This document shows positions 21,254 through 64,000 of a DNA stretch of 64,000 nucleotides, piece by piece (positions within the stretch are counted from its first letter, which is position 1; each line of letters opens with the position of its first letter). The notes beneath the pieces are model-generated. The model worked only from the letters and a program-made list of their open reading frames with translations, was not told the DNA's origin and did no database searches. Position numbers and translations under genes: made by a program. Origin of the DNA: Stictocephala bisonia (lineage: Eukaryota > Arthropoda > Insecta > Hemiptera > Membracidae); assembly GCA_035578905.1 (NCBI GenBank), contig JAQJVL010000782.1, forward strand, positions 32,501 through 96,500, read 5' to 3'.

Positions 21254-21389
21254 GTAGGCTAATTTTTATTCGCTGTACAATATTATGTTAAGCAAAATTG
21301 TATGAGCCAATAAATATTTAACAGTTAATTTTACTAGCTTTATCGTACATAATAATTTTAAATTATCACACTTGTTATAGTAATTAAAA

Positions 21390-40389: not shown

Positions 40390-40568
40390 TGTAATGTTAT
40401 TACTTTAAAGAAAACGTAAATTAGTTTGAAAATACACTTTAATAAATAGTGTCCCTAACACTAACTAAAATGACAACAAAAACCAAAAATACACCATATG
40501 ATTCAAATTGTCCATGTAAATAAACGTATGGCTTAAACTAACATGTAAATAAACTTAAATATATTACA
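40390..40568 (-). repeat. 3' LTR of the gypsy-type element
   Basis: 179 bp. It differs from the other LTR by about five substitutions and one 4-bp indel, roughly 3 percent. The last codons of the integrase frame lie inside this LTR. Confidence 0.88.
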
Positions 40569-41545: not shown

Positions 41546-41773
41546 TGACCTAATTGATTTACTTCGTTAAGGTTCTGAATGATTCCAATAGATTTTATTT
41601 CTGTCAATGGAAGTCTGCTTAGCAATCAGCTAGAACTATGATAGCTCGGATGTGTTCTTGGGTGGAGGCTGTCTCTTTATAGCTTCGACACGATCTTCAA
41701 CTGGTTGGATCCCTAGAGCACTGATCTTGTGTCCGAGGTAGGTTACACTTTCTTGAAAAAGCTGCAATTTATC
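41546..41773 (-). pseudogene. Deletion scar between RT and integrase
   Basis: RT-type sequence continues for about 55 codons after the stop at 41774-41776 (the YLGH.IS block and the region just before the FLG.. thumb motif), then breaks off near 41650. It is followed at once by the LSRLPL-type tail that lies just upstream of the integrase in this family. The missing middle would include the RT thumb and all of RNase H. The scar also has small frame changes. The deletion is inferred from domain order. Confidence 0.75.
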
Positions 41774-43867
41774 TTAACGTGTACAAAGTCCAGTTTTTCT
41801 CAATACATTTAAAACTGTTTTGATCCTTTCAATGTGTTCTGGTCCATTTTTGCCCCCTATGCAAATGTCATAGAAATACCATGCAATATTGTCAATTCCG
41901 ACTAAAAGCTGGTCCATTAACTTTTGAAAAATTTTAGGAGCTGTTTTAATACCAAAAGGTAACCTACTGAATGTGAAGTAACCTTTGTGTGTCGCGATTA
42001 CTAAATATTTCTTCAATTCTTCGTCAACAGGAAGCTGTAAATAGGTATCTTTCAAGTCAATAACAGAAAATATTTTAGATCCATTCAACTTCAAAATGGT
42101 TTCTTCAAAGGTTGGAATTGAATATTCGTCATCAACCAAGTGAGGATTGATTGATACTTTGAAATATGCGCACAATCTTACTTCTCCATTAGCCTTTGGA
42201 ACAACAACTATTGGCAAAGCACAAATAATTGGAGTAGTAGAAGGATCTACAGGATCTACCACCCCTACAGAAACCAAACGGACCAGTTCTTTGCTTGTGG
42301 CACTGTGAAGTGCAAAAGGAACTGGCCTGGGTTTGTGTATTGGTAACTGTACGTCATCGGCTACCCTCACCTTTACTTTAATATTACGTACCGTATCCAA
42401 GTTGTTTGAAATTATATCCTTGAACTCTTTGTATATTTGCTGATTTACTCTCTCTTTGTCAAAAATATCGGCGTCGATATAATTAATATTGTGAAAACTT
42501 TGTTTACGTACGTGTTGACAGTTAGGGTCTAGTTTGAATGCAACAATCCAATCTTTGCCAAGTAAAGGAGTACCTGTCAAGCTATCAGTGACAGCCACAT
42601 CCAACTCCAAACAAGTTGAATCCAATTCAACAGTAACTTTTGTTTCGCCTAACATTTTTATTTGAAATGACGGATACGCACCCAGTTTCTCCGTAGGAGA
42701 TAATTTAGGTTCACCAATATGTTTCCATGAAGACTTACTTATTATTGTTCTGGCAGCAGCAGTGTCGTATTCCATAGCAATAGGAACACTATTTATTGTT
42801 AATAGTACTATGTATGAAAATCGTTCCACCTTGTTTATATCATTAACGTTATTTACCAAGGCTATGTGACTGATTTCTGGATCATCATTCATTTGAACTG
42901 AGTTGTTATAATGATCACGTGAATCGTCATTACCATTGTCAACGTTATACAAATCACTTTTGATATTACCATCAATTTGTCTGATTTGCCTTTTTAAGCT
43001 ATTTTTGCTGAGTACTACATTATTAGATTTAAGACAAACTCGTTCAAAATGTCCTACTTTCCCGCAAGCTCTACACGTAGTGTTAAGTGCTTTACAGTTC
43101 TCATCTTGTGGCTTATGTTTTCCCAAACCACATCTAAAACAATGAATATCTTGATTTAAAATAAATTTAGGTCTCAATCTTTGAGCTGTTGGTTGTGTGG
43201 TGTGTGAAAATTTAATTTTATTTACCTGTGTGTTGGTAATAAAAGTTCCTACTTGCTTTTGGTGAGTGTGTGCCATTTCCATGATACAAGCATCCTTTAC
43301 AATGTCTTGTAGTCTAGCCTTTTCCTCAGGATGGTTCCTGATAAGCTCTTCTTGCATTTTCGGATCGTTTAGTCCCAGTAAAAATTGGTCATGTAGCCGC
43401 TCATCAAGCGTGTCCTTGAATTGACAATCAGTAGCTCCAGCCCTCAGATTGTTAAGAAATAAACTGACAGATTGTTCTTTTTCCTTTAAAATTTTACCAA
43501 ACTTTAGTCTTTCAGCTAAATAAGATGTTTTAGGTTTGTAAAAACTAGATATGAAATCAACTATGTCATCGTATTCAATAGTCAAAATAGGTTTTGGGTA
43601 AAAGTTGTCTACAATTATTTTATAATGCTGAGCACCAGTCCATTTCAAAAGTAAAATTTGTTTTGCTGTTGTGTTATTCTGTAGCCCACATACATTAATT
43701 TCTAGCTGAAATTGCTGATAGTAGTATTTCCAAGGTTCTTTGTTAGTATCGAATGTTTCAAATTTGAAATGTGTTAAATCTTTACCTGTTGTGTTTTCGT
43801 TTGATGTTTCAGTTAATGAAAATGATACGTGTTCTTTATCATTTATATCCTGTCCGTACAGTGCCAT
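41774..43867 (-). pseudogene. Gag-protease-RT of the gypsy-type element
   Basis: 697 codons from an ATG three bases inside the 5' LTR edge. Residues about 30-200 are a retrotransposon Gag. Two CCHC-like zinc knuckles follow (C243, C246, H251, C258; C265, C268, H273, C278). An aspartic-protease region at about 355-445 has DTA at 368-370 where family members normally have DTG. RT fingers and palm run from about 500 to 697, with motif A VIDLKD (Asp 604) and the RLPFG block (635-639). The catalytic YxDD box reads YFYD (664-667), so its first Asp is Tyr. Gag and Pol are in one frame. A stop at 41774-41776 ends the frame inside RT. Loss of the RT aspartate, the early stop and the downstream deletion make it non-functional. 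Confidence 0.87.
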
Positions 43868-46839: not shown

Positions 46840-47545
46840 CCTGAGGACAGAAGACTCATACCCAAAGATGTAGGTGGGGCAGCAGGGTCACCAATGGCCT
46901 CTATACATGGTCCTCAGGCCAGGCTGGCAGTGTGGATGGTAGAACTTTGCCCGGACGACCGGCTGAGGGAAAATGTCCCACTCGAGGACCCTGGAGTTTT
47001 AGTTTGTCTAGCCAAACATGGTAAGGAGGTTCGGCCGAGTAGAACTCCTCTAGAACAATCTAGACTGAACAGACAGGCCAACCTGACCGAAGCTGCTGGA
47101 ACACGGAACGAAACGGAACCGGGCCAACGGCTACCAAAGTACGCGGAACGCAGAGCGTGAGCGATCTCAGGCAGCCTGGCAGACAACGAAAAAAAAACCG
47201 AAATGTACCGGTCAAAGACCCGGTACAGTACACAACTTCGCACTGGGGGGCAGATTCTGCAGGAAACTGGCGGCCGACACGATCTTCTTAGACTCTCCTA
47301 ACAGAGCATCTCTACGACAAATCTCAGGGGGAGCCATATTGCACTATACTGGAGGTGGAGTAGCCATGAGAGTGCCAATAATTGTTCTCGTGGCCCTGTT
47401 CAACTGCGTATTAACATCGCTGACTTGAGCACTGTTAAACCGTACAGGACCACAATATTCAGCAGTCGAAAATATCAAGGACAAAGTTAGTAGAAGGGAT
47501 ATGTTCCTTTTGCAACGTCCCATGAGGAGTTTTCGTCATGTGAGC

Positions 47546-47634
47546 AGGTCAAAGGTCAAAGGTCAGGGGTCAAAGGTCAGGCCACAAAGGTCAAAGGTCA
47601 GGGGTCAAAGGTCAAAGGTCAGGGGTCAAAGGTG
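47546..47634 (+). promoter_or_regulatory. Cluster of AGGTCA direct repeats (DR1-like)
   Basis: About ten copies of GGTCA, many in the exact arrangement AGGTCAAAGGTCA, two nuclear-receptor half-sites spaced by one base. DR1 is the known binding arrangement for RXR/USP- and HNF4-class receptors. Flanking copies of GAGTTTTCGTC lie on both sides. It may be a simple minisatellite that happens to contain these sites; binding is inference. Confidence 0.5.
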
Positions 47635-47904
47635 AGTTTTCGTCAAACGGTGAGTCGGTGGTGGGGGAAGTCACGTGACCTTCCCCCACCCTCTGGCGGC
47701 GGTCAATCGTCGAGGTCCTGTGTAAGCAGATCGGTCAGCGATCAGTTGTCGACGAGCCTTCGAGCGGCAAGTACTGTTCTCTCCTGACTCTCTGATTCCT
47801 GCCTGCGCAGAACTTCTCTGTTGGTGAGTATTTAGAAAATATACGGTCGGTGTTAGAGACAAGCCTTGAGTCTTTGTGATTCGGCCAGTTTTAAACACCG
47901 ATCA

Positions 47905-47946
47905 GTCCTTTAGCCAACTTTGCAAGGCTAAAGTTTGCTAAAGGAC
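47905..47946 (+). other. Strong hairpin, 42 nt
   Basis: GTCCTTTAGC pairs with GCTAAAGGAC (10 bp), then one mismatch, then AACTTT with AAAGTT (6 bp), with an 8-nt loop. It lies in the GC-rich segment about 330 bp before the palindrome. Its role is unknown. Confidence 0.7.
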
Positions 47947-48344
47947 TCGCAGGGGATTCCGTGAGAGTGGTGGGACGCACTCTCGACCAACTTCGACTTG
48001 GCAGCGGATACCCGGGTGGGGCCAGCGTGTGACGCACTGGCTTTTCCTCATAAGGCAACTGCCGTTAGGAGTCGTCACTAGGTTCCCTTAGCTTGCTTTT
48101 ACCCTCCCCAGTGCCGTGTTAGAACACCGATGTGTCTAACACTGAGCCACTTTCTGGTCTTTAGGTATTCTCCGAAACAATCAATATATTTCCCGCAAAA
48201 AGTGGTTTTTTGCTTATATCTCGAAAACGGTGCGTCCTAGAGCCTTGAAAAATTTTTTCGACCCCCTTAACACGAACAACATCCCACCGATTTAGGCAAT
48301 TTCCGACATAACTGGAAGAAAAAATTCCAAGAATATCGTCTCTG

Positions 48345-48583
48345 GACTTATCTTTACCCCCACCACTCCGGATCTAGTTTCGTTATTTACCGTCTGATTT
48401 CGCTCAAATTTGGTACACGTGTACAGATACGCATGCCATACAATATAAACCGTTTGTATTATGTATATGTCGTCTCTGGACTTATCTTTACACCCACCAC
48501 TCCGGATCTAGTTTCGTTATTTACCGTTCGATTTCGCTCAAATTTGGTACACGTGTACAGATACGCATGCAATACAATATAGC
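48345..48583 (+). repeat. Terminal direct repeats of the left unit
   Basis: Two tandem copies (about 48345-48455 and 48470-48583) sharing CGTCTCTGGACTTATCTTTA, CCACTCCGGATCTAGTTTCG and GGTACACGTGTACAGATACG. The palindromic GTACACGTGTAC core may be a protein-binding site. The reverse complements lie at 61163-61345 and 63863 onward. Confidence 0.8.
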
Positions 48584-48650
48584 TAGGCTAAAAGTGCATT
48601 TTATATAGTACAAAAGGGAATTTGAGGGAATTTTTGGGAGGGAAAATTCC
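48584..48650 (+). repeat. Subterminal motif shared with the inner unit ends
   Basis: GGCTAAAAGTGCATTTTATA then TAGTA and GGGAATTTGAGGGAATTT. An inverted, diverged version lies at the inner end of the same unit (about 54061-54130). Each 6-kb unit therefore has its own terminal inverted repeat. Confidence 0.7.
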
Positions 48651-48693
48651 CAACAGGTTGTCAGGACTGGGGGCCGCCATCTTGGATCCGGGG

Positions 48694-48736
48694 CATATAT
48701 ATTACGATGATTTCAGGACAATTCTCATTCAGTCTC
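48694..48736 (+). promoter_or_regulatory. Candidate TATA/initiator promoter of the left unit
   Basis: CATATATATTA at 48694-48704 is followed about 33-35 bases later by TTCAGTCT, an arthropod-type initiator. The zinc-finger ORF begins 80-90 bases further on. The same arrangement is present in the right arm. Prediction from motif spacing only. Confidence 0.4.
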
Positions 48737-48816
48737 AGACTTTTGAACGAGACACATCTAGCAGCTCCGCTATTTACAACGTACATAACCTACAAATTCA
48801 TTTGCAGATCATCATC

Positions 48817-49449
48817 ATGAACCCCAACCAGATTGCATGCCCCAGATGCGGCAAGCTCGTATCTCGGAAGAACATAGTTCGCCACCTCAAGAGCTGCACC
48901 GGACCTACAACAACCCAGGAGCCTCAACGTCCCTGTCCGGCTTGTGGACTCATGATAACTATCTCCAACCTCAGACGTCACCTCAAGAAGTGTAGCCCCG
49001 CTCACCTCAAGAGGAAAGCCGACGAGCCAGCCCCCTCCACTTCCAAGGTTGCTCGTTTTGAGGACGACCCCCAACCGTCAACCAGCACTTCCATCATTGA
49101 TACCGTCCGCTCAACCATCGTATCGGCATACAATACGGCTAAGGGAGCAGTAGATCATCTGATTGGAGGAAAGCAGCTCCGTATTGAAGAGATCGCGAAG
49201 GCGTTCCGGGACAGGATGAAGACCTACTCCGTCGTCAATCGTCCCGGTATTAAGGATCCAGCTGGATTCCTCCGACAAGCCCGAGAGCTAATCATGGCGA
49301 AGATTGCAGAAAACTTGCATGCAGAGAACATCAAGACGCAAGTCGTTTGCATCGCCGAGTATAAGAAGCCAGTAGGCGATAACGATGAGAGGAAGGAGAT
49401 GAACTTCAAGACTAAGAACGCATCATCCTTCCCACCACTAACATTGTGA
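48817..49449 (+). CDS. Double zinc-finger protein, left unit (N-terminal part of polymerase protein?)
   Basis: 210 codons from the first ATG. Two closely similar CCHC-type fingers begin it: CPRCGKLV..HLKSC and CPACGLMI..HLKKC (residues about 8-28 and 39-59). A Lys-rich, Pro/Ser-rich linker follows, then a region with the pattern FRDRMKTY..NRPGIKDPAGFL. In related insect proteins that I recall this region continues directly into the DNA polymerase. Here the frame stops four bases into the polymerase frame, so I read it as the N-terminus cut off by a frame change that is also present in the right copy. It probably binds nucleic acid. TTG-initiated upstream extension is not convincing. Confidence 0.65.
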   Translation: MNPNQIACPRCGKLVSRKNIVRHLKSCTGPTTTQEPQRPCPACGLMITISNLRRHLKKCSPAHLKRKADEPAPSTSKVARFEDDPQPSTSTSIIDTVRSTIVSAYNTAKGAVDHLIGGKQLRIEEIAKAFRDRMKTYSVVNRPGIKDPAGFLRQARELIMAKIAENLHAENIKTQVVCIAEYKKPVGDNDERKEMNFKTKNASSFPPLTL

Positions 49450-52400
49450 ACTATCTGGAGGACGCCGAGGGGAAGCTTCTAAAGGAAATGGATGAGTTCT
49501 ACGCCAAGGGATCCGGGTGGACCCTCAGCAAGATCATCTCCCTGGAACTGAGAATCAACAACTATAAGCCTCTTCGTGGATCAACATACTGTGAACTACC
49601 AAAGAAAATTGCAGCTAAACACGCCGTGCTCAATATTAATAACAACAACAACAAGTGTTTCCTGTGGTCTGTGCTAGCCGCACTTCACCCTATTCACCGA
49701 AAAGACCAACCTCATCGGGTTCAACACTATCTACCCTATGAGCACGCCTTTGACCAATTCCTTCAAGGCATCACATTCCCCATCAGCCTCGACCACGTCA
49801 AGTTATTTGAGAAGAGGTCTGGGATCTCCATCAATGTCTACGCCTACGATGAAAAGTTCGTAGTGTACCCGCTGCTGGTCACGGATAGGGAGCAGCAGAA
49901 ACACATCGACCTGCTATATATAAAGGACAAGAACAACGCCCACTATTGCCTAATTCGAGATCTCGCCAGATTAGCTGGCCGGCAAATTACAAAAAACCAT
50001 ATAAGAACATGGATATGCCGTAGGTGTCTACAGCACTATGGAAGAGAATATCTGCTAGCCTCACACATGGAATACTGCAACGACCAAGAAGCTGTTAGGA
50101 TTGAAATGCCTAAACAGGGCAGCAAAATCAAGTTCGAGGAAGGGAATAGAACGATGAGAGTACCCTTCGCTGGATACGCCGACTTCGAATGCATGCTGAC
50201 CGCCATTGAGACGGAGGAGGATGAAAGGATGGACGAGTATGGAGCAGCAAAGTCATATACCAAGCAGTATCAGAAGCATGAGGCTGTAAGTTTCTGCTAC
50301 TATATTGTCTACGCTGATGATCACTACGGAGAACCTGTGAAATACTTTGGATCCGATGCAGCACAAGTTTTTGTCGAGAGTCTGTTCAGAGAGTTGAAGA
50401 AAATTGCTCACCTGTACTCTTCTGCAGCAGCCAAACCGATGGACCTAACCCCAGAAGATTTCACTACCATCGCCAACTCTACAATCTGCCATATTTGCGA
50501 GAAGCCTTTTACTGACCCGGAAGACTACAAAGTCAGAGACCACGACCATCTTACTGGAAAATTCAGAGGCATCGCTCACAACACCTGCAATCTCAAGTTC
50601 CGCAAACCTAATTTCATTCCAATCTTCATCCACAACTTGAGCGGCTATGACACACATCTTTTCATAAAAATGTTCGGACTCAATGACGAAACTATTAGCG
50701 TCATCCCGAATAACGAGGAGCGATACATTTCCTACACCGTAGAGATTGAGGGAGGAGTAAAACTACGGTTCCTTGATTCTTGCCGCTTTATGATGTCCAG
50801 CCTCGACTCACTGGCGAAGATCTTAACGACACCACAATTCCGCGAAACATCAAAATTCTACTCTGGAGAGAAACTACAACTACTCATCAAGAAGGGTATC
50901 TACCCCTACGACCATATGGACTCCTTGGAAAAATATCAGCTCACCAACCTACCAGAAAAGAATGACTTTTACAACAGGCTAAACAAGACGGATATCACAG
51001 ATGCAGAACACGAACACGCTCAGACAGTATGGAACACATTCAAAATCTCCAACATAGAAGAATACACTCTCCTGTACAACCAGACGGACGTTCTGCTTTT
51101 GGCGGACATTATGGAGAACTTTAGAGACGTTTGTATGAACACCTACAAGCTCGACCCAGCATGGTATTTCACCGCTCCCGGACTGGCATGGAGTGCAATG
51201 CTTAAAACTACGAGAGTTGAACTGGATCTGTTGACCGACAATGAAATGCGGCTGATGATCGCCCGAGGTATTCGAGGAGGAATATCCCAGTGTTCCAACC
51301 GTTATGCAAAGGCAAACAACCCCTATATGGAGGATTATGACATGGACAGGCCTACTACTTACCTCACATATCTCGACGCTAATAATTTATATGGATGAAC
51401 TATGAGCCAGCCTATGCCTCATGCAGACTTTCTATGGGTGCACGATCCTGAAAACATCGACATCATGAGCATACCGGATGACGCTCCTAGAGGCTACATC
51501 TTCGAAGTGGATCTAGAGTACCCTCGAGAGCTGCACGACACCCATTCGGACTATCCATTGGCACCAGAGCAGCGCATTCCTCCAGGCTCCAAGAACATGA
51601 AACTCCTACTCACTCTCTTCAACAAGGAGAAATATGTTATTCACTACCGAAACCTAAAACAGTACATCTCCCTTGGCATGCGGGTGAAGAAAATCCATAG
51701 AGCTGTCAGCTTTATGTAAAGTACTTGGCTAAAGGCTTACATCGATTTAAACACCAACATGAGAATAAGAGCAACAAACGAATTTGAGAAAGACTTTTAT
51801 AAGCTGATGAACAACTCAGTCTTCGGTAAAACTATGGAAAACATATTAAACAGAGTGGATATCCGCCTCGCAACCAAGGAAACACAAGCTGATAAGTGGA
51901 TGGCGCAGCCTAATTTTAAGAGCCGTACCATATTCACAGAGCACCTGGCTGCAGTCCATATGAGTAAGACACGTCTGTTCTTCAATAAGGCTATATACGT
52001 AGGCATGAGCATCCTGGACGTTTCTAAGTTGTTGATGTATGAGTTTCACTACAATGTGATCAAGAAGAAATATGGTGAAAAAGCGCAACTCCAGTATACG
52101 GACACAGACTCGCTTACATATATGATTGAAACAGTTGACTGGTATAAAGACATGAAGGAGATGATTCATCTGTTCGACACCAGCGATTACTCCGACCCCA
52201 ACCGTTTTGACATTCCAAGAGTTAATAAAAAAGTGTTGGGTGTGATGAAGGATGAGCTTAGCGGACGTATAATGTTTGAGTACGTGGGACTACGCTCTAA
52301 AATGTACGCTAGCCGGTCTGAAAACGGAGAAGCTAAGAAGGCAAAAGGAGTCAAAAAATCTGTAGTAAAGAATGAACTAGAGTTTTCTGACTATAAGGAG

Positions 52401-52661
52401 TGCCTCGATAAATTCTGTCTCCTCTACAGTACTGTGAATGTTATGTTGGATGAGGCTTTGGAGAGAAATGAAAAGTATAAATCCTGCCAAGTGAATAGAA
52501 AAATGAATCTAATTAGGAGTCGCCGCCATGAACTGTACAGCATAGAGCAAAATAAAATAGCGCTTTCAGCCTACGATGATAAGCGTTTCATTTTGGAAGG
52601 AGGCATAAAGACCCTGCCATGGGGACATTATTCCATCGATGAAGAAGCGATGATTGACTGA
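49446..52661 (+). pseudogene. Family B DNA polymerase (protein-primed type), left unit
   Basis: One frame of 1,071 sense positions broken by TGA (51396-51398) and TAA (51717-51719). Order: a region with C191, C194, H207, C211; Exo I YADFEC (244-249); a Cys/His HNH-like insert with C348, C351, a DHDH..GK..G segment and C381; Exo II NLSGYD (397-402); Exo III YNQTD (544-548). Polymerase motif A DANNLYG (644-650) is immediately followed by the TGA, where relatives usually have Trp. After the TAA come motif B KLMNNSVFGKT (15-25 of the last piece) and motif C YTDTDS (113-118). This matches the organellar/viral PolB family used by Polintons, which replicate by protein priming. The first codon used here is GTG; there is no ATG because the frame continues from the zinc-finger ORF by a frame change. 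Confidence 0.88.
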
Positions 52662-52721
52662 GCCGTCTTAGACGCGCTGATGGTGGAGTAAGGAGACAGA
52701 TGGGAGCACAAGAGTGCAGGA

Positions 52722-52778
52722 GGTAGCAAATAGAAGAAGGTCGGCTACCACTTTCCGCAGCGGGGAGGGGCTGCGGAA
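52722..52778 (+). terminator. Two-stem structured motif A, after the polymerase
   Basis: Stem 1: GGTAGC (52722-52727) with GCTACC (52744-52749). Stem 2: TTCCGCAGC (52753-52761) with GCTGCGGAA (52770-52778), loop GGGGAGGG. It starts 61 bases after the polymerase stop and is followed by AATAAA at 52792. A role in transcript 3'-end formation is inferred, comparable to the 3' hairpins of some giant viruses. Confidence 0.55.
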
Positions 52779-52827
52779 TCCCTTAAAAACCAATAAATAT
52801 TTTGGTTTACAACAATCTTAATCAGTT

Positions 52828-52968
52828 ATGAATTGGACACAATTCAAACCAGTTATGAATGTGAGAGAAATCATCGCCAAAGAGCTACACGCTCCAGCCA
52901 GAAGAACATTTCCCACCAGACCTGTGGAAGTCAAAGGATGGGCTCAACTCGTCCGTAGTACAATGTAA
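52828..52968 (+). pseudogene. Possible N-terminal fragment of a Polinton-type integrase, left unit
   Basis: A 46-codon ATG frame. Residues about 17-38 read AKELHAPARRTFPTRPVEVK. This is the pattern I associate with the segment before the catalytic core of Polinton c-integrases and related transposon proteins (ELH.PARR.FP.R.V, then a Trp-containing ADL block). The Trp is present, but the frame then diverges and stops, so no DDE core remains. It lies 160 bases after the polymerase and is followed by a splice-donor-like CAGGTAAGT at about 53018. Recognition is from memory of the motif, not from a search. Confidence 0.45.
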
Positions 52969-53623
52969 AAACCTCGTACTGGACGAACCTTCTTCTTAAT
53001 TACGGTAACTCCTACGCCAGGTAAGTAATGTTAAGTTAGTTTTAAGTAAACTCTTTTACCGTCAACCTTTAAAAACAATCTGTAAAATAAATTCTGTTAT
53101 AATATGGTCACTTTTGTGAGTTTACATAACTACAATTTATTAACGGATATCTCCAGCTCTGTGTGAATTTCTATAGAATACCGTACCATCGAGGTGAGGG
53201 CGGCCCACATTCAATAAAAAAGCCCGACTGTTCTCTAAGGCAGCCGTAAAACGCATAAGACCTGAGGCAGTCCTGCAGCTTGGGGCTGGGCTAATCCCCG
53301 TAAGACCTTGAGTCGCAGTCCGGGCCCTCGTACGGTACGTGTATGATTGAATGTTACACTCTATGGCTGGACAGTATCCGTAGGTCCTGTGTGTGAGGGA
53401 GAGTAACCTACAAAAAAGAAAAAAACACACAAAACCTACTGTAAAAAACAGAATTAAAAAATAATAAAAACAAATTTATAAATAAAAACCCCTTTGTAAG
53501 TCTGTACGTCACATTGAAAGGCTTCTCTAAGTAAAGTGTTGTCTTTACTTACAGAGGGACCCAAAAAATACAAAAAATAAATACAAAAAAATTTATAAAA
53601 ACAATAACTAAATAATACTGGGA
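52969..53623. other. Non-coding part of the left unit
   Basis: No convincing gene. GC-richer block at 53140-53400, then A-rich DNA. Confidence 0.45.
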
Positions 53624-53677
53624 GGTAGCATTTTGTTGGTTGGCTACCACCTTAATGAGCGAGGTTGGGGCTCATTA
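53624..53677 (+). terminator. Two-stem structured motif B, left unit
   Basis: Stem 1 GGTAGC (53624-53629) with GCTACC (53643-53648). Stem 2 TAATGAGC (53653-53660) with GCTCATTA (53670-53677), loop GAGGTTGGG. Same layout as motif A (52722-52778) with the same first stem and ACC(A/C)..TT joint, but an entirely different second stem that still pairs. This is strong evidence for selection on structure. Confidence 0.6.
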
Positions 53678-54060
53678 CACTAAAATACCCGTGGGGGATA
53701 CCAGTCCTCTATCGGGCGCGTCCCATGGGAATTGGGCAATGCCCTTCAGTTTTGCCTTCAGCTTACTTGAGGGTAGTGAGGAATTAAATACTCACCGTGA
53801 AAAAAACTGGTTAAATCAGTTTTTCTAAACATTAAAAAACCTTTAAAATTATCTAATAGACTCTTTATAAACTTAGTTTGTGCTCAAAACAACACACAAA
53901 AGACCAAACACAAACTCTACATATAAGACTCTTGGTTAACCACCCACCTACTCAACATACAACAACTCTGATAGATCATCCACCTAACCATTACATAAAA
54001 CCTTTGATAGACCACCAATACACATGAACAACCTACCTACCTACCTACATAACAGTACCA
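53678..54060. other. Non-coding part of the left unit
   Basis: No gene called. A 62-codon frame overlapping motif B begins with TTG and has no known domain. CCACCTACC/CTACCTAC-type short repeats lie at 53940-54050. Confidence 0.45.
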
Positions 54061-54270
54061 CCCTCCCAAATTTCCCGCCAAATTTCCCTCAAATTCCCTC
54101 GTTATACTATATAAAATGTACTCTTAGCCAAAATGCACTCTATTTACAGTCTGGGTTGGGCTAACGTGGGTTAACACAACGTGGGTTATTAAAGCCCGGG
54201 TTAACCCACGTTGATTTAAAGCCCCCAGAGGGCAGAAAAGTAAGGATGATTCGTCCATATATTATCTACT
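54061..54270 (-). repeat. Inner end of the left unit with iteron-like repeats
   Basis: Carries the inverted subterminal motif (54061-54130), then AACGTGGGTTA twice direct (54163-54173, 54178-54188) and once inverted (54202-54212). It ends at TATTATCTACT, which reads 5'-AGTAGATAATA on the other strand; a 5'-AG end fits Polinton termini. Confidence 0.65.
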
Positions 54271-55443
54271 AACAGGAAAACAGAAAAACAGGAAAACAGG
54301 AAAACAGAAAAACAGAAAAACAGAAAAACAGAAAAACAGAAAAACAGAAAAACAGAAAAACATAAAAACAGAAAAACAGAAAAACAGGAAAACAGAAAAA
54401 CAGAAAAACAGAAAAACAGAAAAACAGAAAAACATAAAAACAGAAAAACAGAAAAACAGGAAAACAGAAAAACAGAAAAACAGAAAAACAGAAAAACAGA
54501 AAAACAGAAAAACAGATCCTGTTTTTCTGTTTTCCTGTTTTCCTGTTTTTCTGTTTTTCTGTTTTTCTGTTTTCCTGTTTTCCTGTTTTTCTGTTTTTCT
54601 GTTTTTCTGTTTTTCTGTTTTTCTGTTTTTCTGTTTTTCTGTTTTTCTGTTTTTCTGTTTTTCTGTTTTTCTGTTTTTCTGTTTTTCTGTTTTTCTGTTT
54701 TTCTGTTTTTCTGTTTTTCTGTTTTTCTGTTTTTCTGTTTTTCTGTTTTTCTGTTTTTCTGTTTTTCTGTTTTTCTGTTTTTCTGCTTTTCTGTTTTTCT
54801 GTTTTTCTGTTTTTCTGTTTTTCTGTTTTTCTGTTTTTCTGTTTTTCTGTTTTTCGGTTTTTCTGTTTTTCTGTTTTTCTGTTTTTCTGTTTTTCTGTTT
54901 TTCTGTTTTTCTGTTTTTCTGTTTTTCTGTTTTTCTGTTTTTCTGTTTTTCTGTTTTTCTGTTTTTCTGTTTTTCTGTTTTTCTGTTTTTCTGTTTTTCT
55001 GTTTTTCTGTTTTTCTGTTTTTCTGTTTTTCTGTTTTTCTGTTTTTCTGTTTTTCTGTTTTTCTGTTTTTCTGTTTTTCTGTTTTTCTGTTTTTCTGTTT
55101 TTCTGTTTTTCTGTTTTTCTGTTTTTCTGTTTTTCTGTTTTTCTGTTTTTCTGTTTTTCTGTTTTTCTGTTTTTCTGTTTTTCTGTTTTTCTGTTTTTCT
55201 GTTTTTCTGTTTTTCTGTTTTTCTGTTTTTCTGTTTTTCTGTTTTTCTGTTTTTCTGTTTTTCTGTTTTTCTGTTTTTATGTTTTTCTGTTTTTCTGTTT
55301 TTCTGTTTTTCTGTTTTTCTGTTTTTCTCTTTTTCTGTTTTTCTGTTTTTATGTTTTTCTGTTTTTCTGTTTTTCTGTTTTTCTGTTTTCCTGTTTTCCT
55401 GTTCTCCTGTTTTTCTGTTTTCCTGTTTTTCTGTTTTCCTGTT
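54271..55443. repeat. Octanucleotide array at the palindrome centre
   Basis: 54271-54516 is (AAAAACAG)n, about 31 copies. At ATCCT near 54517 it turns into (CTGTTTTT)n, about 116 copies to 55443. Variants with GGAAAACAG/CTGTTTTCC cluster at the outer edges and the centre. The two sides have very unequal length. Confidence 0.95.
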
Positions 55444-55660
55444 AGTAGATAATATATGGACGAATCATCCTTACTTTTCTGCCCTCTGGGGGCTTTAAAT
55501 CAACGTGGGTTAACCCGGGCTTTAATAACCCACGTTGTGTTAACCTACGTTAGCCCAACCCAGACTGTAAATAGAGTGCATTTTGGCTAAGAGTACATTT
55601 TATATAGTATAACGAGGGAATTTGAGGGAAATTTGGCGGGAAATTTGGGAGGGTGGTACT
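55444..55660 (+). repeat. Inner end of the right unit with iteron-like repeats
   Basis: Reverse complement of 54061-54270 with one change in an iteron (AACCTACGTT instead of AACCCACGTT). Confidence 0.65.
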
Positions 55661-56036
55661 GTTATGTAGGTAGGTAGGTAGGTTGTTCATGTGTATTGGT
55701 GGTCTATCAAAGGTTTTATGTAATGGTTAGGTGGATGATCTATCAGAGTTGTTGTATGTTGAGTAGGTGGGTGATTAACCAAGAGTCTTATATGTAGAGT
55801 TTGTGTTTGGTCTTTTGTGTGTTGTTTTGAGCACAAACTAAGTTTATAAAGAGTCTATTAGATAATTTTAAAGGTTTTTTAATGTTTAGAAAAACTGATT
55901 TAACCAGTTTTTTTCACGGTGAGTATTTAATTCCTCACTACCCTCAAGTAAGCTGAAGGCAAAACTGAAGGGCATTGCCCAATTCCCATGGGACGTGCCC
56001 GATAGAGGACTGGTATCCCCCACGGGTATTTTAGTG
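55661..56036. other. Non-coding part of the right unit
   Basis: Mirror of 53678-54060. No gene called. Confidence 0.45.
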
Positions 56037-56090
56037 TAATGAGCCCCAACCTCGCTCATTACGGTGGTAGCCAACCAACAAAATGCTACC
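56037..56090 (-). terminator. Two-stem structured motif B, right unit
   Basis: Mirror of 53624-53677. Both stems are intact; one base in the joint differs. Confidence 0.6.
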
Positions 56091-56745
56091 TCCCAGTATT
56101 ATTTAGTTATTGTTTTTATAAATTTTTTTGTATTTATTTTTTGTATTTTTTGGGTCCCTCTGTAACTAAAGACAACACTTTACTTAGAGAAGCCTTTCAA
56201 TGTGACGTACAGACTTACAAAGGGGTTTTTATTTATAAATTTGTTTTTATTATATTTTAATTCTGTTTTTTACAGTAGGTTTTCTGTGTTTTTTTCTTTT
56301 TTGTAGGTTACTCTCCCTCACACACAGGACCTACGGATACTGTCCAGCCATAGAGTGTAACATTCAATCATACACGTACCGTACGAGGGCCCGGACTGCG
56401 ACTCAAGGTCTTACGGGGATTAGCCCAGCCCCAAGCTGCAGGACTGCCTCAGGTCTTATGCGTTTTACGGCTGCCTTAGAGAACAGTCGGGCTTTTTTAT
56501 TGAATGTGGGCCGCCCTCACCTCGATGGTACGGTATTCTATAGAAATTCACACAGAGCTGGAGATATCCGTTAATAAATTGTAGTTATGTAAACTCACAA
56601 AAGTGACCATATTATAACAGAATTTATTTTACAGATTGTTTTTAAAGGTTGACGGTAAAAGAGTTTACTTAAAACTAACTTAACATTACTTACCTGGCGT
56701 AGGAGTTACCGTAATTAAGAAGAAGGTTCGTCCAGTACGAGGTTT
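56091..56745. other. Non-coding part of the right unit
   Basis: Mirror of 52969-53623. No gene called. Confidence 0.45.
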
Positions 56746-56886
56746 TTACATTGTACTACGGACGAGTTGAGCCCATCCTTTGACTTCCACAGGTCTGGTG
56801 GGAAATGTTCTTCTGGCTGGAGCGTGTAGCTCTTTGGCGATGATTTCTCTCACATTCATAACTGGTTTGAATTGTGTCCAATTCAT
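56746..56886 (-). pseudogene. Possible integrase N-terminal fragment, right unit
   Basis: Mirror of the 46-codon frame at 52828-52968, with the same stop. It has no catalytic core, and the identification carries the same uncertainty as the left copy. Confidence 0.42.
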
Positions 56887-56935
56887 AACTGATTAAGATT
56901 GTTGTAAACCAAAATATTTATTGGTTTTTAAGGGA

Positions 56936-56992
56936 TTCCGCAGCCCCTCCCCGCTGCGGAAAGTGGTAGCCGACCTTCTTCTATTTGCTACC
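56936..56992 (-). terminator. Two-stem structured motif A, right unit
   Basis: Mirror of 52722-52778 with both stems intact, just downstream of the right polymerase copy. Confidence 0.55.
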
Positions 56993-57052
56993 TCCTGCAC
57001 TCTTGTGCTCCCATCTGTCTCCTTACTCCACCATCAGCGCGTCTAAGACGGC

Positions 57053-60000
57053 TCAGTCAATCATCGCTTCTTCATCGATGGAATAATGTCCCCATGGCAG
57101 GGTCTTTATGCCTCCTTCCAAAATGAAACGCTTATCATCGTAGGCTGAAAGCGCTATTTTATTTTGCTCTATGCTGTACAGTTCATGGCGGCGACTCCTA
57201 ATTAGATTCATTTTTCTATTCACTTGGCAGGATTTATACTTTTCATTTCTCTCCAAAGCCTCATCCAACATAACATTCACAGTACTGTAGAGGAGACAGA
57301 ATTTATCGAGGCACTCCTTATAGTCAGAAAACTCTAGTTCATTCTTTACTACAGATTTTTTGACTCCTTTTGCCTTCTTAGCTTCTCCGTTTTCAGACCG
57401 GCTAGCGTACATTTTAGAGCGTAGTCCCACGTACTCAAACATTATACGTCCGCTAAGCTCATCCTTCATCACACCCAACACTTTTTTATTAACTCTTGGA
57501 ATGTCAAAACGGTTGGGGTCGGAGTAATCGCTGGTGTCGAACAGATGAATCATCTCCTTCATGTCTTTATACCAGTCAACTGTTTCAATCATATATGTAA
57601 GCGAGTCTGTGTCCGTATACTGGAGTTGCGCTTTTTCACCATATTTCTTCTTGATCACATTGTAGTGAAACTCATACATCAACAACTTAGAAACGTCCAG
57701 GATGCTCATGCCTACGTATATAGCCTTATTGAAGAACAGACGTGTCTTACTCATATGGACTGCAGCCAGGTGCTCTGTGAATATGGTACGGCTCTTAAAA
57801 TTAGGCTGCGCCATCCACTTATCAGCTTGTGTTTCCTTGGTTGCGAGGCGGATATCCACTCTGTTTAATATGTTTTCCATAGTTTTACCGAAGACTGAGT
57901 TGTTCATCAGCTTATAAAAGTCTTTCTCAAATTCGTTTGTTGCTCTTATTCTCATGTTGGTGTTTAAATCGATGTAAGCCTTTAGCCAAGTACTTTACAT
58001 AAAGCTGACAGCTCTATGGATTTTCTTCACCCGCATGCCAAGGGAGATGTACTGTTTTAGGTTTCGGTAGTGAATAACATATTTCTCCTTGTTGAAGAGA
58101 GTGAGTAGGAGTTTCATGTTCTTGGAGCCTGGAGGAATGCGCTGCTCTGGTGCCAATGGATAGTCCGAATGGGTGTCGTGCAGCTCTCGAGGGTACTCTA
58201 GATCCACTTCGAAGATGTAGCCTCTAGGAGCGTCATCCGGTATGCTCATGATGTCGATGTTTTCAGGATCGTGCACCCATAGAAAGTCTGCATGAGGCAT
58301 AGGCTGGCTCATAGTTCATCCATATAAATTATTAGCGTCGAGATATGTGAGGTAAGTAGTAGGCCTGTCCATGTCATAATCCTCCATATAGGGGTTGTTT
58401 GCCTTTGCATAACGGTTGGAACACTGGGATATTCCTCCTCGAATACCTCGGGCGATCATCAGCCGCATTTCATTGTCGGTCAACAGATCCAGTTCAACTC
58501 TCGTAGTTTTAAGCATTGCACTCCATGCCAGTCCGGGAGCGGTGAAATACCATGCTGGGTCGAGCTTGTAGGTGTTCATACAAACGTCTCTAAAGTTCTC
58601 CATAATGTCCGCCAAAAGCAGAACGTCCGTCTGGTTGTACAGGAGAGTGTATTCTTCTATGTTGGAGATTTTGAATGTGTTCCATACTGTCTGAGCGTGT
58701 TCGTGTTCGTGTTCTGCATCTGTGATATCCGTCTTGTTTAGCCTGTTGTAAAAGTCATTCTTTTCTGGTAGGTTGGTGAGCTGATATTTTTCCAAGGAGT
58801 CCATATGGTCGTAGGGGTAGATACCCTTCTTGATGAGTAGTTGTAGTTTCTCTCCAGAGTAGAATTTTGATGTTTCGCGGAATTGTGGTGTCGTTAAGAT
58901 CTTCGCCAGTGAGTTGAGGCTGGACATCATAAAGCGGCAAGAATCAAGGAACCGTAGTTTTACTCCTCCCTCAATCTCTACGGTGTAGGAAATGTATCGC
59001 TCCTCGTTATTGGGGATGACGCTAATAGTTTCGTCATTGAGTCCGAACATTTTTATGAAAAGATGTGTGTCATAGCCGCTCAAGTTGTGGATGAAGATTG
59101 GAATGAAATTAGGTTTGCGGAACTTGAGATTGCAGGTGTTGTGAGCGATGCCTCTGAATTTTCCAGTAAGATGGTCGTGGTCTCTGACTTTGTAGTCTTC
59201 CGGGTCAGTAAAAGGCTTCTCGCAAATATGGCAGATTGTAGAGTTGGCGATGGTAGTGAAATCTTCTGGGGTTAGGTCCATCGGTTTGGCTGCTGCAGAA
59301 GAGTACAGGTGAGCAATTTTCTTCAACTCTCTGAACAGACTCTCGACAAAAACTTGTGCTGCATCGGATCCAAAGTATTTCACAGGTTCTCCGTAGTGAT
59401 CATCAGCGTAGACAATATAGTAGCAGAAACTTACAGCCTCATGCTTCTGATACTGCTTGGTATATGACTTTGCTGCTCCATCCTCGTCCATCCTTTCATC
59501 CTCCTCCGTCTCAATGGCGGTCAGCATGCATTCGAAGTCGGCGTATCCAGCGAAGGGTACTCTCATCGTTCTATTCCCTTCCTCGAACTTGATTTTGCTG
59601 CCCTGTTTAGGCATTTCAATCCTAACAGCTTCTTGGTCGTTGCAGTATTCCATGTGTGAGGCTAGCAGATATTCTCTTCCATAGTGCTGTAGACACCTAC
59701 GGCATATCCATGTTCTTATATGGTTTTTTGTAATTTGCCGGCCAGCTAATCTGGCGAGATCTCGAATTAGGCAATAGTGGGCGTTGTTCTTGTCCTTTAT
59801 ATATAGCAGGTCGATGTGTTTCTGCTGCTCCCTATCCGTGACCAGCAGCGGGTACACTACGAACTTTTCATCGTAGGCGTAGACATTGATGGAGATCCCA
59901 GACCTCTTCTCAAATAACTTGACGTGGTCGAGGCTGATGGGGAATGTGATGCCTTGAAGGAATTGGTCAAAGGCGTGCTCATAGGGTAGATAGTGTTGAA

Positions 60001-60274
60001 CCCGATGAGGTTGGTCTTTTCGGTGAATAGGGTGAAGTGCGGCTAGCACAGACCACAGGAAACACTTGTTGTCGTTTTTATTAATATTGAGCACGGCGTG
60101 TTTAGCTGTAATTTTCTTTGGTAGTTCACAGTATGTTGATCCACGAAGAGGCTTATAGTTGTTGATTCTCAGTTCCAGGGAGATGATCTTGCTGAGGGTC
60201 CACCCGGATCCCTTGGCGTAGAACTCATCCATTTCCTTTAGAAGCTTCCCCTCGGCGTCCTCCAGATAGTTCAC
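57053..60274 (-). pseudogene. Family B DNA polymerase, right unit
   Basis: Same domain order as the left copy and the same TGA (58316-58318) and TAA (57995-57997). It is two codons longer because of an extra Glu-His in the acidic/His repeat before Exo III. A few residues differ: the Asn-rich run near residue 65, Ala to Thr near 56, Tyr to Asp near 265, and Asp to Asn near 454. All exonuclease motifs and polymerase motifs A, B and C are unchanged. The copies are therefore very close, and the lesions predate their separation. Confidence 0.88.
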
Positions 60275-60903
60275 AATGTTAGTGGTGGGAAGGATGATGC
60301 GTTCTTAGTCTTGAAGTTCATCTCCTTCCTCTCATCGTTATCGCCTACTGGCTTCTTATACTCGGCGATGAAAACTACTTGCGTCTTGATGTTCTCTGCA
60401 TGCAAGTTTTCTGCAATCTTCGCCATGATTAGCTCTCGGGCTTGTCGGAGGAATCCAGCTGGATCCTTAATACCGGGACGATTGACGACGGAGTAGGTCT
60501 TCATCCTGTCCCGGAACGCCTTCGCGATCTCTTCAATACGGAGCTGCTTTCCTCCAATCAGATGATCTACTGCTCCCTTAGCCGTATTGTATGCCGATAC
60601 GATGGTTGAGCGGACGGTATCAATGATGGAAGTGCTGGTTGACGGTTGGGGGTCGTCCTCAAAACGAGCAACCTTGGAAGTGGAGGGGGCTGGCTCGTCG
60701 GCTTTCCTCTTGAGGTGAGCGGGGCTACACTTCTTGAGGTGACGTCTGAGGTTGGAGATAGTTATTATGAGTCCACAAGCCGGACAGGGACGTTGAGGCT
60801 CCTGGGTTGTTGTAGGCCCGGTGCAGCTCTTGAGGTGGCGAACTATGTTCTTCCGAGATACGAGCTTGCCGCATCTGGGGCATGCAATCTGGTTGGGGTT
60901 CAT
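60271..60903 (-). CDS. Double zinc-finger protein, right unit
   Basis: 210 codons on the minus strand from the ATG at 60903. It is the same protein as 48817-49449 apart from a few changes (Met to Ile in the second finger; Cys to Phe in the IAEYK region). Both CCHC fingers are intact. It ends at the same frame change just before the polymerase frame, with a four-base overlap. Confidence 0.65.
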   Translation of the reverse strand: MNPNQIACPRCGKLVSRKNIVRHLKSCTGPTTTQEPQRPCPACGLIITISNLRRHLKKCSPAHLKRKADEPAPSTSKVARFEDDPQPSTSTSIIDTVRSTIVSAYNTAKGAVDHLIGGKQLRIEEIAKAFRDRMKTYSVVNRPGIKDPAGFLRQARELIMAKIAENLHAENIKTQVVFIAEYKKPVGDNDERKEMNFKTKNASSFPPLTL

Positions 60904-60984
60904 GATGATGATCTGCAAATGAATTTATAGGTTATGTACGTTGTAAATAGCGGAGCTGCTAGATGTGTCTCGTTCAAAAGTCTG

Positions 60985-61028
60985 AGACTGAATGAGAATT
61001 GTCCTGAAATCATCGTAATATATATGCC
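60985..61028 (-). promoter_or_regulatory. Candidate TATA/initiator promoter of the right unit
   Basis: Mirror of 48694-48736: TAATATATATG with AGACTGAA on the plus strand, giving a TATA box and TTCAGTCT initiator on the minus strand. Motif-based only. Confidence 0.4.
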
Positions 61029-61069
61029 CCGGATCCAAGATGGCGGCCCCCAGTCCTGACAACCTGTTG

Positions 61070-61345
61070 GGAATTTTCCCTCCCAAAATTTCCCTCAAAT
61101 TCCCTTTTTGTACTATATAAAATACACAATTAGCCTTGTTATACTATATAAAATGCACTTTTAGCCTAGCTATATTGTATTGCATGCGTATCTGTACACG
61201 TGTACCAAATTTGAGCGAAATCGAACGGTAAATAACGAAACTAGATCCGGAGTGGTGGGTGTAAAGATAAGTCCAGAGACGACATATACATAATACAAAC
61301 GGTTTATATTGTATGGCATGCGTATCTGTACACGTGTACCAAATT
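61070..61345 (-). repeat. Outer end of the right unit, first part
   Basis: Mirror of the left outer end. It includes an extra tandem copy of the subterminal motif (ACTATATAAAATACACAATT and ACTATATAAAATGCACTTTT), where the left end has one. The terminal direct repeat is cut by the LINE at 61346. Confidence 0.8.
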
Positions 61346-63832
61346 GATAAAATATAATAAAAAATCTAATAATCAATCCATTGAACATTCAGGCTTTTGT
61401 ATAAATGCTCCAGTTCAAAAAAATGTAGATTTTAATCTAGTTAAAGAGAATTTACAGAATGTAAACTGGAATGATGTATACTTAGAAAACAATGTAAATA
61501 TATCCTTTGACAAGTTTTATGAAATTTTGAATAATGTTGTAAGTCTAAGTAAGAAAAGTCAAATAAGTAATAATAAGTTTCTGAAAGCCAAATCATTGAG
61601 CCCGTGGATAACGCTAAACATTTTAAATAAATTTAACAAACGTAAAAAACTGTATAAAATTTTTAAAAGGAGGCCCTACGACTCGTCATTTAAGAACTAT
61701 TTTCAAAAATTTTGTTCTGACTTAAATGGTCATATTTTTAAAACTAAAAACTTATATTATTCTAAAAAATTAGATAACTGTAAAGGTGATTCGTCACAGC
61801 AGTGGAAAATAATCAATAATTTGACTGGAGGCGCCGCAAACAAAACCGTAGACCGGATTGAATTGGACAATGGGTCAGTTGTCACAAATCCAAGCGATAT
61901 CGCTGAGGAGATAAACAACTACCTTATCTCGGTTCAGTCGGACAGGCCTCATACTGTTGCATCAGTCACTCTCCCGCCATTGCACCACTACCCGCAATCC
62001 TTCTTTGTGGCACCTACTACTGAGGATGAAATTAAAATGATTATTAAAGGTTTGAAAAATAAAAAATCTAGTGGTTTTGACAATATAAGTGTACAATTAT
62101 TAAAATTTATTGTTGATGAAATTGCACCTGTATTAGTTTATTTGGTAAATAGCAGTTTCACTAGTGGAATTTTTCCCGAAGTTTTGAAATTAAGCTCTGT
62201 TGTTCCAATATTGAAAAATAACAACTCTAGTAAATTAGATAATCTAAGACCAATTAGTGTGCTCTCAATTTTTTCAAAATTATTAGAAAAAATCATGTTA
62301 TTGCGACTTCAGAAATACTTAAAAAAAATAAAATTTTTTAGTAATCACCAGTATGGTTTTATTAAAGGTAAATCAACAGAGGATGCGCTTTTGAGTGTTT
62401 CAGAGGAAATTTACCAAAGTCTCAACTCTGGGCTTAAAGCTTGTGGGCTCTTTGTTGATTTCAAGAAAGCTTTTGATCTTGTTGATCATGAAATTCTTAT
62501 TAACAAATTAGAATCCATCGGAATAAGAGGAATCGCTCTAAATTGGTTTTCTAGTTTTCTAGTGGGTAGAAAACAACAAGTAAAGATTGGTAACAATTAC
62601 AGCTCAACTAAATTGGTCGAGAGTGGTGTGCCTCAAGGATCTGTAAGCTCAGCTGTATTGTTCCTCATATTTTTAAACGATCTTTTAAAATTGAATTTTC
62701 ATGGAAAAATTAGTGCATTTGCCGATGACATTGCTCTTTTTTATTCCAATAAGAACGTAAATATCCTTGGTGAACATATAAACCACGATCTGTTACTTTT
62801 AAGAGAGTGGTGTTTAGCGAATAAAATGATAGTAAATGTAAATAAAACAAAATATATTAATTTCGATTTTAATAGCTTCGATATACCTTCTCCTATTAAA
62901 TTTCATTCTGAAGCCTGTGATTTAAGAAGATGTAACTGTCAGACCTTGTGCAAAGTAAACAGTTTTAAATATTTAGGCATTACTCTTGATGAAAAATTTA
63001 CTTTCGAACCTCATATTACTATATTGCATAACAATTTAAGGGCATCCATTAGGAAGTTTTATTTCTTAAGAAATATTTGCAGCTCGGAATTATTAAGATC
63101 CCTTTATTTTGCTTTAATTCACTCAAAATTGCAATATGGACTGGTGTGCTGGGGTGGCACCTTTAAATATTTAATAGACAAATTAAGAATAACTCAAAAT
63201 TATTTTTTGCGTATAATATTAAAAAAACCAAGAAGAGATAGTTCATTTCCTCTTTTTCAGCAATTAAATATCTTACCAGTCCAACATCTTTTCATTTTTA
63301 AAGTTTTAAGATTATTTTTTACTAGAAGTGGAAATTTGGGAAACAATTTATTACATTACAATACTCGATATGTTGCTAATCAAAATTTCCGGTTACCAAA
63401 GGTTAAAAAAGCAATTTTTCGTCACTCTTTTAGCTATTTGGGACCAAAATGTTTTAATCAACTGCCTATAAAAATAAAAAATATTTCAAACTTGAAATCA
63501 TTTAGTAAAAACACAATTATTTGGCTTCTACTGAAAGATGAGATACATTTTGTTAATACAGTAGTCTAGTTGTTTATGTAACAAGAAGTTTTTTTTAGTA
63601 TTTTTAAATTTTATAATAAATTTTATCATTAATTAGGTTTATTTTTAAGATACCGCAGTGGCGACTTTTATATTTTTTTTCTTGCAATGCTAGACTCTAG
63701 AATGATTAGTTTCTAAGCTATTAATTTTATGTTTATTTCTTTACTGGTCACACTACTAGTAATAGTGACCAGTTTAAATTTCCAATTATTATAATGTTAC
63801 TTATAACTGTCTTTAAAAAAATGGAAATAAAA

Positions 63833-63862
<30 letters not shown>
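61346..63862 (+). mobile_element. 5'-truncated LINE inserted in the right unit
   Basis: Inserted in the terminal repeat. The uninterrupted left arm reads CCAAATTTGAG; here the break leaves CCAAATT on one side and AATTTGAG on the other, a 4-bp AATT duplication. The insert starts just after where the endonuclease domain would be and ends with AATAAA and an (ATT)n tail (about 63833-63862). No ORF1 or endonuclease is present. Same superfamily as the LINE at 20-24.7 kb, but a different family and tail. Confidence 0.88.
61430..63569 (+). CDS. LINE reverse transcriptase (ORF2 without endonuclease)
   Basis: The frame is open from the insertion edge (TTG at 61344) to TAG at 63567-63569, about 740 codons; no native start remains because the 5' end is lost. 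Start given here is approximate. It has all RT motifs: NLRPISVLS, motif A VDFKKAFD with its Asp, GVPQGSV, and FADD. A Cys-rich block (C..RRCNC..LC) follows motif C, then the CWGGT block and a C-terminal LP.KIKN segment, as in the LINE at 22.3-24.3 kb. With no stop or frame change over this length the insertion is recent. It could only act if transcribed from a flanking promoter. Confidence 0.85.
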
Positions 63863-63865
<3 letters not shown>

Positions 63866-64000
63866 TTGAGCGAAATCAGACGGTAAATAACGAAACTAGA
63901 TCCGGAGTGGTGGGGGTAAAGATAAGTCCAGAGACGATATTCTTGGAATTTTTTCTTCCAGTTATGTCGGAAATTGCCTAAATCGGTGGGATGTTGTTCG
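63863..64000 (-). repeat. Outer end of the right unit, continued past the LINE
   Basis: Reverse complement of 48273-48410, resuming directly after the LINE tail and running off the window. The true end of the element is not visible. Confidence 0.85.

Follow-up and report, generated by a model that had tools for sequence, protein, structure and literature searches.

A Polinton-derived element with a palindromic structure in the genome of Stictocephala bisonia

Protein-primed elements can make snap-back molecules, and in snap-back or copy-back defective viral DNA, such as that of adenovirus, and in self-complementary adeno-associated virus (AAV), half of the genome is doubled in mirror image. 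Fold-back (FB) transposons, which belong to another transposon class, are mostly inverted repeat, with repeats that are made up of short motifs. For Polintons (Mavericks), the passages of PMC8097293 on intact vertebrate copies give 6-bp target duplications, (AGT)2 as the commonest end motif, lengths of 12.7-24.6 kb and terminal inverted repeats (TIRs) of 46-1,447 bp, while passages of PMC4028283 describe nine capsid-less Polintons that are also without protease and ATPase genes. Here we describe an element on contig JAQJVL010000782.1 (C782; other contigs are named likewise) of the Stictocephala bisonia assembly GCA_035578905.1, in which 1.68 Gb were searched; the window, that is, the whole analysed stretch of 64,000 nucleotides, is C782:32501-96500. 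Quite probably the whole structure is a single mobile element derived from a Polinton: it has retained one terminus and the polymerase gene PolB, has lost the capsid module and is folded back at an octamer array to form a head-to-head palindrome.

The palindrome and its ends

Comparison of the window with itself aligned 48407-54516 with 61345-55198 in inverted orientation over 6,148 columns at 98.9%, which bears out a preliminary description of the locus as two near-identical facing units with an octamer array at the centre. A second mirror piece pairs 48273-48410 with 64000-63863 at 100% and stops exactly at the window edge; since the match reaches base 64000, the left limit of 48273 given in that description is merely an effect of the edge. 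In the 10 kb past the right edge (region L011), the match to the window is confined to the first 808 bases, mirrored to 47487-48272, so that the mirror ends at the terminus of the element. The palindrome is thus real, but it runs from 47489 to 64806 (C782:79989-97306), 806 bases beyond the right window edge, rather than from 48273 to 64000, and its head-to-head arms measure ~6.8 kb plus the array instead of the ~6 kb first proposed. The element is 17,318 bp long, or ~14.8 kb without an inserted retrotransposon, and its fold-back point lies at ~54517.

Both outer ends read AGTAGAAGGGATATG, starting AGTAGA, and a perfect 6-bp target duplication, AAAGTT, stands on both sides. Since Polinton-type termini and a single shared duplication are found at the outer ends, the palindrome itself is the integrated element, which went in as a single piece and whose inverted repeats are giant. 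The earlier view that there is more here than a single element bounded by long TIRs is thereby overturned, and the reading as two 6-kb units was rejected, since one duplication encloses the whole palindrome. Breakage of the chromosome and fold-back repair of a resident copy inside the array, which had also been suggested, is contradicted at this locus, because no single duplication would then result outside both arms.

The very high identity of the arms might alternatively hint at an assembly artefact, such as a chimeric read, or two haplotypes, assembled as a head-to-head fold; contig C2582 does stop inside its second arm, and C762 inside a PolB. Such an artefact is nevertheless extremely unlikely, since the sequences outside the two ends are unrelated and share the 6-bp duplication, one arm has a 2.5-kb insertion that the other lacks, with indels of 32 and 6 bp and ~20 substitutions (19-20 outside the array) between them, and the same structure lies internal to contigs of 0.38-9.1 Mb.

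Related palindromes and full-length Polintons

The counts that follow are lower bounds: 40 PolB matches were scored of 616 candidates and 40 junction matches of 1,398. The search with PolB DNA placed 19 of its 40 scored matches in 12 palindromes (C782, C439, C48, C5270, C5, C296, C7656, C6459, C5146, C2582, C3904 and C2175) and 14 in elements that have a capsid module (ten assigned through a same-strand capsid gene ~9-14 kb away, four through a 501-base sample); seven were unassigned (C762, C2699, C471, C333, C6295, C1270 and C1238). With a probe for the palindrome junction, the 40 scored matches comprised 13 convergent pairs (26 matches), two divergent pairs (4 matches) and 10 single matches, adding C640, C1273, C455, C1253, C2182 and C14. 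The genome therefore holds at least 18 head-to-head palindromes, six of them known from paired junctions alone, plus three with a diverged PolB. The latter, inverted PolB pairs on C9, C5021 and C7954 with 68-78% DNA identity to the reference PolBs (700-base sample per arm), imply that the palindromic layout is not limited to one PolB lineage.

AGT-type ends with perfect 6-bp duplications occur at seven of the nine palindromes read at both ends, the duplications at the other six loci being ATAAAT (C439), CCTATA (C48), CGTCCC (C5), ATTATC (C296), ATAATT (C9) and GATAAT (C5021). When left and right flanks were paired across different loci (seven loci, one of them full-length), none of the 42 pairings matched. 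The left end of C5270 is unreadable, and C6459 and C7954 each run off the contig at one end. A host-side accident, in which a single copy already resident broke inside its array and was repaired by fold-back to leave an inverted duplication in place, would account for the position of the array at the centre, and in yeast breaks are known to give inverted duplications through fold-back (PMC10622511). We regard such an origin as very unlikely: the flanking chromosome should be mirrored too, yet the mirror stops at the terminus; a single duplication surrounds both ends at these seven of nine loci; and the same junction stands in convergent pairs at 13 loci.

Two full-length Polintons of the same genome, C26 (regions L027 and L028) and C1525 (L031 and L032), were examined in detail. 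C26, ~18.0 kb long with an inverted repeat of 214 bp at 83.6%, gave Pfam matches to a double jelly-roll (DJR) capsid (E 6.5e-109), phospholipase A2, Pox_A32 ATPase and rve integrase, and its PolB of 1,291 amino acids (aa) contains Endonuclease_7. C1525 measures 17,551 bp and has capsid and ATPase genes, a 250-bp TIR at 99.2% and the target duplication TTCCTT. This family is apparently large and recent, the capsid search having scored 105 loci of 2,722 candidates, 86 of them without stops, at 96-100% identity. The window PolB shows 95-97% DNA identity to that of the full-length Polintons. Both full-length elements also contain the octamer array (C26:1557867-1558165 and C1525:10118-10534), which ends 325 and 71 bp from the midpoint, respectively, and on the PolB strand has the same orientation as in the left arm of C782. 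The preliminary description had left room for the unit being only a part of a standard Polinton. Full-length elements of 17.6 and 18.0 kb with a close PolB end do exist, but the palindrome recurs at many loci and its junction found no match in C26 and C1525. The description as a head-to-head derivative of a Polinton that has a polymerase but no capsid genes is upheld, and related copies exist in the genome.

Origin of the palindromes

The arms hold, in order, the terminus and PolB, a hairpin motif at the gene end, ~37 integrase codons, a stretch resembling U1 small nuclear RNA (snRNA), a stretch similar to the full-length element's far end, and the array. The U1-like stretch yields a sequence like a 5' splice site on the PolB strand. 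Against Rfam RF00003 it scores 31.2 bits in the window, under the curated cut-off of 69.5; matches below that cut-off were found in each of the six palindromes that were scanned (C782, C5, C439, C2582, C48 and C7656), and none in C26, the full-length element included in the Rfam scan. Its presence in six palindromes and not in C26 argues that these six share a derived junction and, to judge from their sequences, have multiplied in palindromic form.

We propose that protein-primed synthesis would start at the PolB-side terminus, switch to the complementary strand in the array or close to it, and copy back to the starting terminus, the outcome being a molecule with two identical origins. Integrase would be supplied in trans by the full-length family, and the doubling would restore a near-full length (14.6-15.7 kb in C439, C48, C5 and C296 vs 17.6-18.0 kb), perhaps meeting a need of packaging. 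A bolder reading, possible though on balance somewhat doubtful, would make the element an inherited satellite of an endogenous virus. As a self-complementary Polinton with a single gene, it would replicate through hairpins from two identical origins, borrow its integrase and perhaps its capsids from the full-length family, and use the array as its built-in fold-back hinge; it would also have lasted until it split into several lineages.

Several observations weigh against the proposed explanation. The copy-back step itself is one that we infer rather than an event observed. In C439, C5 and C7656 the array is one-directional in the part of the centre that was read. The far-end-like stretch within the arms (69-89%) implies that the derivation took more than one step. 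C7656 (12.8 kb) and C5146 (11.9 kb) are shorter and without target duplications. Of all the arms compared, theirs differ most (2.23% substitutions and ~90% identity over 2.4 kb, respectively), as if each palindrome had been built from two elements. Two further palindromes (C2826:24296-33821 and C972:272741-286353, in regions L067-L072) have the opposite layout, with PolB pointing outward, and the mirror of C972 extends to both edges of the DNA examined. No target duplication was seen at the ends of C26. The PolB tree (1,903 columns, 21 rows) favours the explanation in that the arms of one element are sisters in seven of eight palindromes, but it also puts the PolBs of C26 and C1525 inside the two clades that contain palindromes, which means either an exchange of PolB or more than one origin of palindromes. 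Finally, the longest identical tract between the C782 arms is 2,625 bp, a length reached in none of 5,000 random-placement simulations, and identical tracts go beyond random placement in four of eight elements (C782, C5270, C7656 and C6459); those of C439, C48, C5 and C296 are no longer than random placement.

The long tracts suggest that the arms may owe some of their likeness to gene conversion after insertion. Substitutions between the arms, in the best aligned stretch of each element, amount to 0.01% (C5), 0.19% (C439), 0.32% (C782), 0.36% (C296), 0.51% (C6459), 0.61% (C5270), 0.85% (C48) and 2.23% (C7656). Given these tracts, arm divergence was dropped as a pure age clock; the giant inverted repeats could still date insertions, provided that gene conversion is accounted for. 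Conversion might even have made the palindromes, if the repeats of an ordinary Polinton grew inward from the PolB end by repeated gene conversion with no fold-back intermediate. The conversion-like tracts in half of the elements compared agree with such growth, the TIR of C1525 would be an available starting point, and the tree permits exchange of PolB with full-length elements. We nonetheless think this improbable: the capsid half would need symmetric overwriting up to the octamer array, half-grown TIRs occurred in none of the elements examined (no census was made), and the reversal of array direction at the centre of C782, C48, C5270, C6459, C5146 and C2582 fits fold-back. In a Polinton derivative folded at the array, the arms may be kept alike by hairpin intermediates in replication, by gene conversion after insertion or by both.

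Gene content and relation to known systems

Table 1. Features of the C782 element in window coordinates
Feature	Position	Strand	Remarks
Left target-site duplication AAAGTT	47483..47488	+	right copy C782:97307-97312, outside the window
Left arm: outer terminus AGTAGAAGGGATATG, PolB, inner non-coding part to octamer array	47489..54270	+	
AGGTCA tandem repeat by outer end	47546..47633	+	similar AGGTCAA repeat at left end of full-length Polinton C26
134-bp tandem repeat, outer arm	48333..48581	+	3.8 copies in matching region of full-length C26
Subterminal motif, outer copy	48586..48648	+	
N-terminal zinc-finger part of PolB, frameshift behind	48817..49449	+	210-aa open reading frame
PolB piece 1: putative OTU-like domain, exonuclease motifs (by eye), Endonuclease_7 insert	49488..51398	+	636 aa; in-frame TGA at end
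PolB piece 2	51402..51719	+	in-frame TAA at end
PolB piece 3, palm region with YTDTDS (by eye)	51759..52661	+	
Multi-hairpin motif at gene end	52684..52794	+	recurs in full-length Polintons
First ~37 codons of Polinton integrase gene, cut off	52828..52938	+	97.7% over 52680-52938
U1-snRNA-like stretch	52866..53028	-	antisense to PolB; best over first ~75 nt
Subterminal motif, inner inverted copy	54068..54129	-	
Octamer array AACAGAAA	54271..54516	+	left of fold-back point
Octamer array CTGTTTTT	54519..55443	+	right of fold-back point
Right arm	55444..64000	-	continuing to 64806 (C782:97306)
Right-arm PolB gene	57053..60903	-	same pieces as left
Retrotransposon fragment (RVT_1; without long terminal repeats (non-LTR) by ATT tail)	61346..63862	+	2.5 kb; right arm only

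The zinc-finger open reading frame (ORF), the 636-aa ORF and two more ORFs (Table 1) are a single PolB gene, which relatives read through continuously, other copies in the genome having one open stretch of ~1,300 codons across the corresponding DNA. The compact unit of zinc finger and PolB described earlier thus retains its PolB, but the supposed separate zinc-finger gene is the N terminus of the polymerase. In each arm of the window element, one frameshift and two in-frame stops interrupt the gene, with identical piece layout; as proof that both arms descend from one dead arm the two shared stops are weakened, since they lie within the longest identical tract. Among the eight palindromes with both arms fully read, the frame is open in both arms in three, in one arm in two and in neither in three.

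By homology, the gene is predicted to encode a protein-primed family B polymerase. Pfam found Endonuclease_7 in the pieces and matched no polymerase model; PDB sequence searches with two PolB pieces gave no match. A few relatives carry a precomputed PF03175, which we take to be DNA_pol_B_2. The nearest named matches are from the leafhopper Macrosteles quadrilineatus, spiders and a stink bug, and relatives at 34-36% identity sit in two viral contigs whose ORF lists, read by eye, include capsid and ATPase genes and, in one contig, an integrase. A structure of modest quality (mean pLDDT 63.7) was predicted for the 636-aa piece; the 14 top matches in a structure search with this model were OTU-type proteins (best probability 0.92, E 0.07; none with E <= 0.001), and an OTU-like match is expected from the Polinton polymerase layout TP-vOTU-EXO-PALM given in passages of PMC11071308.

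The structured RNA motif proposed earlier is supported at the gene end, where folding gave z = -4.38 against shuffles. Copies in full-length Polintons lie at L028:582-694, L028:1495-1599 and L027:8236-8343 (C26) and at L032:1900-2005 (C1525), one copy being directly behind PolB; the copy at L028:1495-1599, one of five folded, was no more stable than its shuffles. At 53624-53710 of the window there is a variant with the stems kept and the letters different. Rfam gave no match at the gathering cut-off anywhere in the window, and its matches to MIR2118 and RNase P inside the octamer array were taken as composition matches. The outer and inner inverted copies of the ~62-bp subterminal motif are 84% identical, so that the inverted motif claimed for both unit ends is present in the C782 arm. 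Among six centres inspected, the inner AGTAGATAAT motif is present in those of C782, C439 and C5270, the centres of C5, C48 and C296 being built otherwise; as it occurs in three palindromes only, it is no general unit boundary and was dropped as the mark of a unit end. Elsewhere in the window lie satellite arrays at 440-1940, 5364-9483 and 11584-12846 (units of 22, 98 and 64 bp), an endonuclease with a reverse transcriptase at 20339-24328, read as a non-LTR retrotransposon, and a reverse transcriptase with rve at 40538-43867, read as an LTR-type element.

Since the ends and the target duplication are those of a Polinton, whereas gene content and short repeats are not, we name this a Polinton-derived element, which is not a standard Polinton. 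ORFs, Pfam and mapping on the full-length element revealed no capsid or packaging ATPase gene in the window arms; the first ~110 bp of the integrase gene remain in the C782 arm, the whole gene being present in full-length relatives; and the inverted repeat takes up about the whole element instead of forming short TIRs around a unique interior. Literature searches at the level of titles and abstract openings, with Repbase and most subscription journals outside their scope, found no report of palindromic Polintons.

The element resembles Polintons in its related PolB, AGT-type ends and 6-bp duplication and in sharing the genome with complete relatives that have DJR capsid, A32 ATPase and rve integrase genes; the putative OTU-like N-terminal part of its PolB (a weak structural match, E 0.07) may be a further likeness. 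It differs in that the element is a palindrome, with inverted repeats of ~6.8-7.6 kb as against the 46-1,447 bp given for intact vertebrate Mavericks in passages of PMC8097293. From the capsid-less Polintons it differs in that the integrase, too, is cut to a fragment in C782; the passages of PMC4028283 that allow this comparison make no mention of palindromes.

A snap-back-like form thus seems to exist here as an inherited transposable element, amplified in a genome that also has its full-length relatives, which would make it a natural test of Polinton replication, of the length tolerated and of an endogenous virus carrying its own parasitic derivative. Snap-back viral DNA and self-complementary AAV resemble it in having two identical origins and a near normal length; unlike them, the C782 family is inherited in host chromosomes at many loci and is known from DNA alone. 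FB transposons, finally, are alike in that the element is mostly inverted repeat, whereas the repeats of the C782 type hold a PolB gene and Polinton-type ends.

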